DNA of 27,242 bases from a virus: the IMG/VR virus record IMGVR_UViG_3300042396_000182, positions 1 through 27,242 of that record; one strand, given 5' to 3'. Positions 5,602 to 22,285 of the stretch are shown piece after piece. A program made the position numbers and the translations under genes. Every line of letters begins with the position of its first letter. Position 1 is the first letter of the stretch. The notes under the pieces were generated by a model. It did no database searches. It had not been told where the DNA came from and saw only the letters and a program-made list of their open reading frames with translations.

Positions 5602-7248
5602 ATGAGGACTTCTCCTAAACGAACTCAACTGCATTCTCTGCGCGATTTCACGGGTGGAATCAACCTTGTTTCAGACGCTTTCAAGTTGGGTGACAACGAG
5701 TCACCCGACCTATTGAACGTTGACTTGGATCGTCGTGGAGGATTCCAGGTTCGACGTGGGGTAACACCGTTTTCAAACACTCCTTTGGCTGCGTCCCCCG
5801 ACAGTATTTGGACTTTCAACGCTTCTGGAACTATTCACACGATGGCGCAGGTTGGCACTGTCGTGTACAGCAGTGTCCCATCGGTTTGGACGACAATCGG
5901 AACCAGTCTTGGTTCCGCAACAAAAGATGTTTGTCCTGTCACGTTCAACAACAACTGTTACTGGGCTAGAGGCAACGCTGATGTAGCCAAGTTCACTGGT
6001 TCTATAGCCTCCACGATGGGCAATGCCTTCAACGACACAATTACTGCTACCAGCGGTAATGTCATCAGAGCCAACCATGCTGCTGTTCATGCAGGTTACA
6101 TGTGGGTTGCCAGCACCTACGAGGGTGCTGGAGGCGTAAACAGTTTCCCCAACCGCATTCGTTTTTCATGGGCAAACACCTTTGACAACTCGGGTGAGAA
6201 CTGGCGTACAGACGATTTCATCGATATTGATGAAGGCAAAGACTTTGATCCGATCACAGCAATGGTCCCGTTTGGTGATCACCTTCTCATATTCAAACGT
6301 GATTCCGTGTATGCCATCTACGGTTCATCGGCTGAAACATTTAGCATGGTCAACGTTTCCAGCACTGTCGGTTCTGTTTCCCATGCAGCTGCTATCGCAA
6401 CACCAGCAGGAGTATTTTTCTTTGACCATTCATCGGGCGTAAACGTCTACACGGGTCGAAATGTCACAAACGTATTTGGCCAGGTTTTGCCTGCGCTGCG
6501 TGACGGTGACATTCCCCGATTGCAAACCGACAAAGTGGATATGGGTTGGGTCAACAATCGCCTATGGGTTTCAGTCCCGTGGGCGGACGATCCAACACCC
6601 CCCAGAGGTGTCACGTTTGTTCTCGACCCCAACCTGAAAACAGGTGGGTCATGGACAAAGTATTCATTGAAACTTGGTCCATACAGCCGCGGTTACAGGA
6701 CTGTTGACAGTTTGGCGTATGTGTACGGCACAAATCTGGTGTTTAAGGTTGATGTGGTTGGACAATATTTTGACAACTTTGGTCCCGAACTGGGCATCAA
6801 ACCTATTGATGCTTGGTATCAGACTCGTTGGGTTGATCTGGGGGAGCCATCAATTAAGAAGCGTTGGCGGCGCACCGAGGCTTTGATGCAGGTCGATCAA
6901 GGTTATGACTTGCCTGTTGTTTCCTATTCAGATTATGACCCGACAGTTACGGTAAAGAGCTTTAAGTTCAATGCTGTTGGCAGTTCTTCTGGTGTTAACG
7001 ATGCCATCTGGGATGATCCTGATTCCGATTGGGTTAGTCCATCAATAAACCCAGGGGCAACAAAATGGGCTAAATCGGGTGTTTACGGATATGTGGATCG
7101 TGGACAAACGCTGGGTATTGCTCGATCAGTTTCTTTAAAGGTGGGCGGTCAAGTGCTGTCTGCCGCTGAGCCAGGTGAAGTGCAGGCCCCCGTTTTTTGG
7201 GGTGTCGATGCTTTGCTTTTTAAATATGTCCCTCGGAGGGTTCGATGA
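5602..7248 (+). CDS. Tail nozzle / packaged-DNA stabilisation protein (P22 gp10-like)
   Basis: 548 residues from ATG 5602. The N-terminus has the recognisable nozzle signature: LRDFTGGINLVSDAFKLGDN followed by ESPDLLNVDLDRRGG and VRRGVTPF. The body is β-rich with regularly spaced aromatic/Gly repeats, as in the β-propeller nozzle proteins (for example DHLLIFKRDSVYAIYGSS and VFFFDHSSGVNVYTGR). It forms the distal tail tube below the adaptor and plugs the DNA channel. No clear SD is visible, so it is probably coupled to the gene ending 5 nt upstream. The stop overlaps the next start as ATGA. Confidence 0.8.
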   Translation: MRTSPKRTQLHSLRDFTGGINLVSDAFKLGDNESPDLLNVDLDRRGGFQVRRGVTPFSNTPLAASPDSIWTFNASGTIHTMAQVGTVVYSSVPSVWTTIGTSLGSATKDVCPVTFNNNCYWARGNADVAKFTGSIASTMGNAFNDTITATSGNVIRANHAAVHAGYMWVASTYEGAGGVNSFPNRIRFSWANTFDNSGENWRTDDFIDIDEGKDFDPITAMVPFGDHLLIFKRDSVYAIYGSSAETFSMVNVSSTVGSVSHAAAIATPAGVFFFDHSSGVNVYTGRNVTNVFGQVLPALRDGDIPRLQTDKVDMGWVNNRLWVSVPWADDPTPPRGVTFVLDPNLKTGGSWTKYSLKLGPYSRGYRTVDSLAYVYGTNLVFKVDVVGQYFDNFGPELGIKPIDAWYQTRWVDLGEPSIKKRWRRTEALMQVDQGYDLPVVSYSDYDPTVTVKSFKFNAVGSSSGVNDAIWDDPDSDWVSPSINPGATKWAKSGVYGYVDRGQTLGIARSVSLKVGGQVLSAAEPGEVQAPVFWGVDALLFKYVPRRVR

Positions 7249-19230: not shown

Positions 19231-19980
19231 GTGGATGACGTAGACGGATTTTTGCAAGCACAAAATTTTACGAAGAATGGGTCTCGGACCCCGAACTTGT
19301 GGGTGGTCCACGACGAGGAATATCCCGAGCGGCCCGATGCCGCATGGGATGTCGCCCGATACTTTGCAGGGGCCAACGCCCCCCGATCCTCAGCCCATGT
19401 ATGTGTCGATGACCGCAACGCCATTGGCTGTGTTGATTGGCGCGACATTGCATGGCATTCAGGTCACGGTGCAACCAACAACCGTTCTATCGGTGTTGAG
19501 CATTCAGGATATGCGTCACAATCCCGCGAGGAATGGTTGGACGAGTACGGCATGAAAATGCTGGATCGTTCCGCCCGACTGTTCGCAGAAGTCGCCTACG
19601 GCATTTTTGGTATCCCCGCCGTAAAACTCACCCCCGAACAGGTTGCAGCAGGTGAAGCTGGAATCTGCGGCCATGCCGATGTGACCTACGGGTTCAACAT
19701 TTATGGGGGCCACACCGACCCAGGCGAACAGTTCCCGTGGGACGTTTACATCTCGATGTGCAAAAAGCACATCACAGGATCATCGGAGGATGATGAAGTG
19801 AAACCGTACATTCTGATCGACCCCCGAGACACAAAAGCATGGCTGTGTTCGGGAAACACCAAATACCATTTGGCAAGCATGGGGGAACTAGAGGTCCACA
19901 AGTTCTTTGGTGCCGCCGTTGTGAACCCTGCGCCCGCCGCATGGGTGGATTCGCTGTGTACTATCAAGGACGCACAGTGA
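19231..19980 (+). CDS. Endolysin: N-acetylmuramoyl-L-alanine amidase (Amidase_2)
   Basis: 249 residues from GTG 19231. A zinc amidase that cleaves the bond between MurNAc and the peptide stem. Zn ligands by family pattern: H27 (LWVVHDEE), H148 (CGHADV) and D163 (GGHTDPGEQFPW). E90 in SIGVEHSG matches the catalytic/structural acid. The amidase domain spans about residues 20-175. A C-terminal region (about 185-249, ending WVDSLCTIKD) is a probable wall-binding or regulatory domain. The only SD-like AGG is inside the hairpin at 19219-19231, so initiation may be regulated. It overlaps the holin start (GTGA). Confidence 0.9.
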   Translation: MDDVDGFLQAQNFTKNGSRTPNLWVVHDEEYPERPDAAWDVARYFAGANAPRSSAHVCVDDRNAIGCVDWRDIAWHSGHGATNNRSIGVEHSGYASQSREEWLDEYGMKMLDRSARLFAEVAYGIFGIPAVKLTPEQVAAGEAGICGHADVTYGFNIYGGHTDPGEQFPWDVYISMCKKHITGSSEDDEVKPYILIDPRDTKAWLCSGNTKYHLASMGELEVHKFFGAAVVNPAPAAWVDSLCTIKDAQ

Positions 19981-20249: not shown

Positions 20250-20382
20250 CTGGGATCTTGACGATCCCAACCATGCCAAACCCGAGTCAGATGATGACTA
20301 CGAGTATGTGGAGCCTGATGCGGTTCCTACGCGGGTCCATCCCAACGAACACCCGTACGAGATTCCAGTAGCACCAGTTTAG
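20224..20382 (+). CDS. Short acidic protein, last gene of rightward block
   Basis: 52 residues from ATG 20224, overlapping the holin by 26 nt. Very acidic and Pro-rich (DWDLDDPNHAKPESDDDYEY), no TM. No SD is visible, so it may depend on coupling. Its 3' end overlaps the last leftward gene by 56 nt, an unusual convergent overlap. It could be real or a read-through of non-coding DNA; the amino-acid composition favours real but only moderately. Confidence 0.45.
   Translation: MTLAPPRPDWDLDDPNHAKPESDDDYEYVEPDAVPTRVHPNEHPYEIPVAPV
20251..20269. terminator. Perfect 7-bp hairpin at the convergent junction
   Basis: TGGGATC (20251-20257) pairs with GATCCCA (20263-20269) around TTGAC, starting one base after the holin stop. 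No T tract follows on either strand, so it is a weak terminator candidate. Its place between opposing operons makes it worth noting. Confidence 0.35.
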
Positions 20383-20512
20383 AACGCAGTCGCTCAATCT
20401 CGTCGGCTGCCTCACGTTCCAAATAACAGTCTGAGTGGCCGTGGTCGTGTTCAAGATATTCTCCCTCTGGTAAACACGCCCGTAGGCGCAACATTTCAAC
20501 AATGTCACTCAT
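20327..20512 (-). CDS. Small protein with helical EAADEIERLRS motif
   Basis: 61 residues from ATG 20512. Its start overlaps the upstream stop (ATGAGTGA, 8 nt), so translation is likely coupled. It resembles the common phage small-protein plan MSDIVEMLRLRACL... then a helical EAADEIERLRSKLVLL. These are widely seen in phage accessory clusters and have no known function. A HDHGHSDC run (about residues 20-29) might bind metal. It is the last leftward gene. Confidence 0.65.
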   Translation of the reverse strand: MSDIVEMLRLRACLPEGEYLEHDHGHSDCYLEREAADEIERLRSKLVLLESRTGVRWDGPA

Positions 20513-20693
20513 TTTCAAATTCCCGTGGGTCCGATTTAACGTCGTACTCGTCCCAAAGTGCATGGCGCATGGCGGATCGAACCTGTTCGGCCTCGTCCTG
20601 TTTGACCAGGTGCCACGGCTTTACCATTTTTCGGATTAAGCCAACAGGCAAAATCACAGTGACTACTTGTTCATCAGGCATTTGATAAGTCAT
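20505..20693 (-). CDS. Small RHH-like protein, paralogue 1 of 3
   Basis: 62 residues from ATG 20693, with SD AAGG 8 nt upstream; an in-frame ATG at 20702 abuts that SD and is unlikely. Pattern: β-strand VVTVILP, helix of about 15 residues (VGLIRKMVKPW), a loop, and a second helix (EQVRSAMRHAL). This strand-LP-helix-loop-helix plan is shared with the next two genes upstream and resembles ribbon-helix-helix DNA-binding proteins. The RHH reading is inference, and there is no search behind it. Confidence 0.65.
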   Translation of the reverse strand: MTYQMPDEQVVTVILPVGLIRKMVKPWHLVKQDEAEQVRSAMRHALWDEYDVKSDPREFENE

Positions 20694-20835
20694 TAGTTTC
20701 ATCCTTTACAAGACTTTGTTGGCACGCAAGTTCAAAAACATCTCTTGGGTATCGGGTGAGTCGAAGTCGGTCGGCTGCTGCTTTGACAATCCAACGAGGC
20801 AGGAACACGGCGATGATTTCATCCTCATTGTCCAT
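20674..20835 (-). CDS. Small RHH-like protein, paralogue 2 of 3
   Basis: 53 residues from ATG 20835, with SD GGGAG 7 nt upstream; an in-frame start at 20859 would bring in eight extra residues and lacks an SD. The strand IIAVFLP is followed by the helix RWIVKAAADRLR, the turn LTRYPR and the helix DVFELACQQSL. The spacing from LP to the second helix is 18 residues, against 20 and 21 in its neighbours. Overlaps the upstream gene by 11 nt and the downstream gene by 20 nt. Probable small DNA-binding or regulatory protein. Confidence 0.65.
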   Translation of the reverse strand: MDNEDEIIAVFLPRWIVKAAADRLRLTRYPRDVFELACQQSLVKDETNDLSNA

Positions 20836-21055
20836 TAGATGACTCCCAATCAATCGCATTGCGGAATGCCGTCATAACGGCATCTTTGGGATTCAGGTAC
20901 ACGACCTGATCTTTAGTAAAGTTCGCCCATCGCTGCACCAAAGACAACGGCAACTCAACCATCACTGTTGCCTCAGGTTTGATTTCAGGCGTAGCTTCTT
21001 CTGCGCCATCTAGCGCACTGATGCTGGCGACTGACTGTGAACCATAACTACCCAT
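20825..21055 (-). CDS. Small RHH-like protein, paralogue 3 of 3
   Basis: 76 residues from ATG 21055, overlapping the upstream stop by one base (TAATG). It has an extra N-terminal acidic/Ser-rich leader (residues 1-25), then the strand ATVMVELP, helix LSLVQRWANFTK, loop VVYLNPK and helix DAVMTAFRNAI. This is the most RHH-like of the three. Dimeric RHH proteins use the β-strand to read DNA. Tandem position plus matching layout suggests gene duplication. Confidence 0.65.
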   Translation of the reverse strand: MGSYGSQSVASISALDGAEEATPEIKPEATVMVELPLSLVQRWANFTKDQVVYLNPKDAVMTAFRNAIDWESSNGQ

Positions 21056-21234
21056 TACAAATCAACCATCTTTTCTTTTGTATTTTGGCGTACCGAATGT
21101 CGATACAACTCCAACTGTCCTGACAGCGATTCAATGGTGTACGCAGCAGCAAGCAGTAGAGCGACGTGCTCACTGATGCCAGCAGGCGAGGCCCCATACC
21201 TCAGGCGTTTCACCAACTCGTCATGTTCTGTCAT
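21055..21234 (-). CDS. Small helical protein (59 aa), function unknown
   Basis: Translated by hand from the minus strand: ATG 21234 to TAA 21055-21057. SD AAAGGAG lies about 10 nt upstream of the ATG. It begins MTEHDELVKRLRYGAS and continues helical (SEHVALLLAAAYTIESLSGQ), ending KEKMVDL. This matches the common phage plan DELV-x-RLRYGAS followed by an AA-x-x-IESL helix. Both ends overlap neighbours (ATGA with the upstream gene, TAATG with the downstream gene), which fills an apparent gap in the operon. Function unknown. Confidence 0.75.
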   Translation of the reverse strand: MTEHDELVKRLRYGASPAGISEHVALLLAAAYTIESLSGQLELYRHSVRQNTKEKMVDL

Positions 21235-21443: not shown

Positions 21444-21630
21444 AATCTTCCTCATCCATTTCAGGCAGCTCATAGGCGTCGAGCTCCCATTGCAAAGCCA
21501 CTTTCAGCATTCCGATTACTTCCCACGGATGAACTTCGTCATCCGTGTTCACTTCCAGCGACATGGTGCCGTCAGGTTCCAGAATGCGAATGACGTGGAC
21601 TCCACCAAGTTCCATGCGTTCACTGGTCAT
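21430..21630 (-). CDS. Small acidic protein, function unknown
   Basis: 66 residues from ATG 21630, overlapping the upstream stop as ATGA. The in-frame TTG at 21648 is less likely. It has a short β/helix layout (VHVIRILEPDGTMSLEVNTD, then EVHPWEVIGMLKVALQWELD) and an acidic C-terminal tail (PEMDEEDYEQD). No family is recognised. Confidence 0.65.
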   Translation of the reverse strand: MTSERMELGGVHVIRILEPDGTMSLEVNTDDEVHPWEVIGMLKVALQWELDAYELPEMDEEDYEQD

Positions 21631-22103
21631 TGGCAGGCCCCGTTCCAAGGTTTCGCACCCAGTTCGTTGTACGCACCTAGGGCTACAGCGTCTTGGTCAG
21701 TGGGGGAGGCATGGTTGGGGGCAACACCGATCAGGTCGTGGCGTCCGATGCGACCTGCAAAGGTGTCCCATCCGCCTTGATAAAACTGGTAGGCACCCAT
21801 GAAGGTTCCTGTCGAGTTCACTGCCTGATAGTTGCCTCGGGATTCACGCCAGCGAATGCACTCGAAGAATGCGTCAACGTTGGTTGGCGCAACAGACGCA
21901 ACAGACACTGGTTTTGTGGTGGTTGTTGTGTTTATCCAGCTCAGGTCAACGGTCGTGGTCGTTGTTGGCGACAATAGAACTGTTGATTCAACGACTATTT
22001 CGGTTGTGACTGGTCGATCTGTTTGATCCCAAATCAGCAGCATTATTAATGCTGTGAGGATCGCTAGAAGAATGAATCCATGTTTCCATGTTGGGTTTCT
22101 CAT
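21627..22103 (-). CDS. Membrane-anchored Rpf-like transglycosylase
   Basis: 158 residues from ATG 22103 (SD GGAG 8 nt upstream, ATGA overlap; an in-frame TTG at 22145 is rejected). Order: a TM/signal anchor at about residues 9-25 (GFILLAILTALIMLLIW), a Thr/Ser/Val-rich extracellular linker (30-75), and a transglycosylase-like domain of the resuscitation-promoting-factor type at 77-158 (FFECIRWRESRGNYQAVNST, then GAYQFYQGGWDTFAG, then WNGACQ). E87 in RWRES is the expected catalytic acid, and C82/C157 could form the family disulfide. It cuts peptidoglycan glycan strands. It is unusual in a leftward early-type operon, far from the lysis genes. Confidence 0.85.
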   Translation of the reverse strand: MRNPTWKHGFILLAILTALIMLLIWDQTDRPVTTEIVVESTVLLSPTTTTTVDLSWINTTTTTKPVSVASVAPTNVDAFFECIRWRESRGNYQAVNSTGTFMGAYQFYQGGWDTFAGRIGRHDLIGVAPNHASPTDQDAVALGAYNELGAKPWNGACQ

Positions 22104-22285
22104 TGCACCTGCTCCAGTCCATAGACCCGCACTGCGGGTACACAAAAATCAAGACCTTTTTGCCAGTCGTCAATTTCATCTTCGAGAAACGGCAATCCGT
22201 CATGGGTTTCGCAAACCACTTCGCTAATCCATTTCTGGGCGATGCCGTGGCTGATCCATTCCTGGAAGTCATCTCGATTACTCAT
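22100..22285 (-). CDS. Small protein with C-x-THDG motif, function unknown
   Basis: 61 residues from ATG 22285, overlapping the upstream stop (ATGA). Contains WISHGIAQKWISEVVCETHD and a second conserved-looking part (DWQKGLDFCVPAVRVY). The two Cys and His-Asp could bind metal. The plan is familiar from many phage accessory clusters but has no assigned function. Confidence 0.65.
   Translation of the reverse strand: MSNRDDFQEWISHGIAQKWISEVVCETHDGLPFLEDEIDDWQKGLDFCVPAVRVYGLEQVQ

Follow-up and report, generated by a model that had tools for sequence, protein, structure and literature searches.

The closest described systems are proteins of the RHH_1/CopG-Arc type (PF01402; P22 Arc, CopG) and the small phage ORFs collected in PHROGs of unknown function. 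The three small proteins analyzed here, G1, G2, and G3, are similar to the former in size and in the order of the predicted elements, and G3 further resembles them in hydrophobic spacing and in a small second-helix residue. In contrast to RHH_1/CopG-Arc proteins, however, the family is acidic, lacks a basic strand face, has a short predicted first helix, and gives no profile match. PHROGs of unknown function are alike in being short, overlapping, co-directional accessory genes beside replication genes, although the family matched no PHROG at a meaningful E-value. Searches of Pfam, PHROGs, PDB sequences, and annotated phages with single proteins or the profile gave nothing above chance, the 7-kb region had no DNA match among annotated phages, and no matching report was found among the titles and abstracts covered by the literature search. 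A first-pass annotation had known of no described phage trio of this kind, and that statement held in the databases searched, where neither a Pfam or PHROG family nor an annotated-phage match was obtained. These results agree with a small acidic protein family that is undescribed in those databases.

The window, that is, the whole stretch of DNA analyzed, is a 27.2-kb virus record. Its right side carries a leftward cluster encoding a DnaB-like helicase, an AEP-type primase, RusA, a sigma-70 region 4 protein, and a transglycosylase-like protein; Pfam matches of the neighbors were DnaB_C, AEP-TOTE, RusA, and sigma-70 region 4. Small overlapping genes come after these, and G1-G3 are located near the distal end of the cluster (Table 1). 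All three are co-directional, overlapping ORFs on the minus strand, and the strand-LP and helix motifs quoted in the first-pass annotation were present in them. The start of G2 is most likely at 20835, because the ATG at 20859 is absent in the close IMG/VR relatives L001 and L002. Similarly, G3 most likely starts at 20693; this ATG is common to both relatives and is preceded by AAAGGA. The transglycosylase-like (PF06737) protein, at 21627-22145, sits inside the leftward cluster and not beside the gene at 19231-19980, which we take to be amidase-like.

Table 1. Features of the G1-G3 region in window coordinates.
Feature	Position	Strand	Description	Basis or relatives
G1	20825..21055	-	76 aa; N-terminal leader (MGSYGSQSV...) and strand-LP-helix-loop-helix core	ORF
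G1 leader	20987..21055	-	First 23 codons of G1; conserved	MGSYGSQSVASI identical in L003
G2	20674..20835	-	53 aa, bare core; overlaps the 3' end of G1	ORF; putative start by L001/L002 conservation
G3	20505..20693	-	62 aa, bare core and acidic tail; overlaps the 3' end of G2	ORF
Flanking small gene	20327..20512	-	HDHGHSDC...AADEIERL	Homologue adjoins family genes in L003
Small gene directly upstream of G1	21055..21234	-	Stop codon overlaps the G1 start	Conserved in L001/L002

L001 and L002 hold the same trio, with G1 89-91% identical to that of the window. Changes in G1, G2, and G3 between the window and these close relatives were mostly silent, and dN was well below dS. Compared with L001, dN and dS were 0.047 and 0.23 for G1 (dN/dS about 0.2), 0.008 and 0.23 for G2, and 0.039 and 0.59 for G3. 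G1, G2, and G3 are real genes under purifying selection.

The more distant relatives L004 and L005 carry a single 100-aa gene, in which a G1-type leader is followed by a G3-type core; the two matching stretches are separated by about 70 bp in these relatives, 272 bp less than the approximately 342 bp of the window, which may reflect either fusion in L004 or expansion in the window. The 56-kb contig L003 contains three cores, namely, one after the leader, one bare, and one after an extra domain related to the protein of the neighboring gene at 5639-5992. This neighbor is also matched by the protein of the window's flanking gene (phmmer E 1.5e-12, Z=700), and blastn gave no DNA match between the two genes. 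In the L022 record, which is a fragment, the neighboring gene is present and the matching site has no family member. Because the copy number thus spans zero (L022) to three across the relatives, the family is, as read from these genomes, accessory, with zero to three copies per virus. Scans of genome contigs with the L004-type protein and with the leader DNA returned zero relatives.

The shared core is ~45 residues long and comprises a hydrophobic strand with L/M-P at its end, a short helix of ~7-9 residues, a loop, and a helix of ~17 residues. It occurs alone (G2 and G3), after the conserved leader (G1 and its relatives), or after an AADEIExL-type domain (L003). On recounting, LP and the quoted helix were 21, 18, and 19 residues apart in G1, G2, and G3, respectively; the first two values agree with the first-pass annotation, which had given 20 for the third. 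The pattern h-x-h-x-L/M-P-x-x-h-h was found in 14/14 family ORFs. The remaining 718 ORFs of these loci, 68,087 residues in total, did not contain it, and among shuffled versions of G1-G3, 0.03-0.06% had the strand-P-helix pattern. This is a post hoc test. Because the pattern was chosen after the data had been seen, profiles built without the tested copy were given more weight than the motif count.

Plain BLASTP showed zero similarity among G1, G2, and G3. In the leave-one-out HMM analysis, the G3 copies ranked 1-4, and G2 and the three L003 copies (L3a, L3b, and L3c) came top except for one L005 family ORF that remained among the decoys, whereas the G1 copies ranked 5, 9, and 11, interspersed with shuffled sequences. 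Profile-profile comparison against the L003 cores, two of the three of which were chosen by eye from the motif ahead of testing, gave hhalign scores of 30.6 for G2 and 18.5 for G3, with 0/100 shuffles as high in either case, and 14.0 for the G1 core, where the top decoy reached 14.7. A direct hhalign alignment of G2 with G3 gave no significant score, as 16 of 100 shuffles reached it. Thus, comparison of the profiles with one another linked G2 and G3 to the L003 cores but not directly to each other. The paralogy suggested in the first-pass annotation is accordingly supported at the sequence level for G2 and G3, which appear to form one paralogous family with the three L003 cores; for G1 it is weaker by the core, and the apparent tie depends mainly on the shared leader. 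The absence of BLASTP similarity and the weakness of the profile scores obtained with G1 and between G2 and G3 would also be expected of unrelated small proteins that have only a simple amphipathic strand-turn-helix pattern in common. We consider this unlikely, since it is opposed by the absence of the motif from the other 718 ORFs, the leave-one-out recovery, and a leader that is common to different cores.

This leader, MGSYGSQSVxxI, precedes the G1 core in the window, the G3 core in L004 and L005, and another core in L003. Its occurrence before three different cores points to exchange between copies. It is furthermore the sole DNA similarity to L003 detected in this part of the window (52 bp, 88%). 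A nucleotide-level element was considered and set aside, as the third-codon changes seen in L003 and L004 suggest that it is the peptide that is selected. Three contigs added by a looser leader pattern (L023-L025) were also discarded; their reading frames look like chance matches. Because of the HMM recovery and the leader before different cores, G1-G3 are likely one ancestral family of tandem copies with reshuffling of leader and core.

The first-pass annotation had also suggested that the three are RHH-like, perhaps combinatorial repressors or anti-host DNA-binding proteins. Divergent regulators of the Arc/MetJ/CopG type would act as dimers, possibly mixed ones, on operators of the phage or the host. 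By our own reading, the hydrophobic residues of G3 at P+3, +4, +7, and +22, its small residue at P+25, and its positions +26 and +30 fit the register of the RHH_1 consensus. The score of the family profile against the RHH profile, 13.9, was likewise above all 150 column shuffles. However, 4 of 250 real-ORF decoys scored as high or higher (up to 18.4), and true RHH proteins scored 21-42. The comparison set consisted of six sequences, namely, Arc and CopG, both verified with PDB chains, the Rv0298 antitoxin, most of which followed its printed sequence, and Mnt, NikR, and PutA. Furthermore, the window contained nothing that matched the RHH_1 (PF01402) profile at E<=10, in a search that was positive in 14/14 control genomes, and no family member matched an RHH model in Pfam.

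AF2 monomer models had a mean pLDDT of 63 for G3 (helices 17-23 and 34-50) and 66 for G2 (helices 14-20 and 31-48). The second helix is located at the expected start of RHH helix B, in favor of an RHH fold, and the helix layouts of the two models match, although both derive from one 13-sequence alignment and their agreement is not independent. Against such a fold, helix A is predicted to span just 7 residues, and at P+9/P+10 every core has an N, D, G, or P. Foldseek with these low-confidence models found neither an RHH nor another useful match, and VIA-align returned only two bHLH proteins (Z 2.1-2.5), which were not useful. All family members are acidic (pI 4.0-5.6). At strand positions -6, -4, and -2, which would face DNA if an Arc-like register is assumed, the window proteins have T/M/E, I/A/F, and V/T/I, and no member has K or R. 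Because of the missing RHH_1 match, the decoy-range score, the low-confidence and unmatched models, the acidity, and the lack of a basic strand face, identity as RHH DNA-binding repressors is not supported, and we regard divergent RHH regulators as improbable. A degenerate RHH-type dimer is possible. The LP-strand-helix-helix pattern by itself is insufficient to call an RHH repressor.

We therefore prefer, with about even confidence, to view G1-G3 as diverged tandem copies of a small unnamed phage family, whose products would be fast-evolving early accessory proteins that act by protein contacts. The overlapping reading frames suggest that the three are translated from one message, and gene order alone would place their expression early. 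The apolar strand may pair either with another copy, giving a homo- or heterodimer, or with a protein of the host. The products, being small and acidic, could then act on a host or phage protein instead of reading a DNA operator, for which their acidity is indirect evidence only. More tentatively, and in our view doubtful as a whole, the family may be modular, with one leader exchanged among tandem, fast-diverging cores, providing a changing protein-binding set that keeps an RHH-like layout without DNA binding. Antitoxin-like or anti-defense factors, each blocking one host enzyme and retargeted after duplication, would suit small, acidic, fast-diverging, and accessory proteins with no member in the L022 record, but neither a target nor a toxin partner was found and no such family was matched in Pfam or PHROGs, so that we hold them very unlikely.

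If the preferred reading of diverged tandem copies is right, the locus would be a compact example of small early phage genes arising by duplication and N-terminal peptide swapping. It would also offer a clear test case, with three neighboring proteins, one natural fused variant, and one relative without them. Separately, two adjoining small genes at L022:4088-4551 were observed to resemble tandem copies (HLDFDRD...WTLHFGDFEIRTSLEVLEHIV and VEIKKDSQSTYTLHFDGFEISTTIDYLEYLI).
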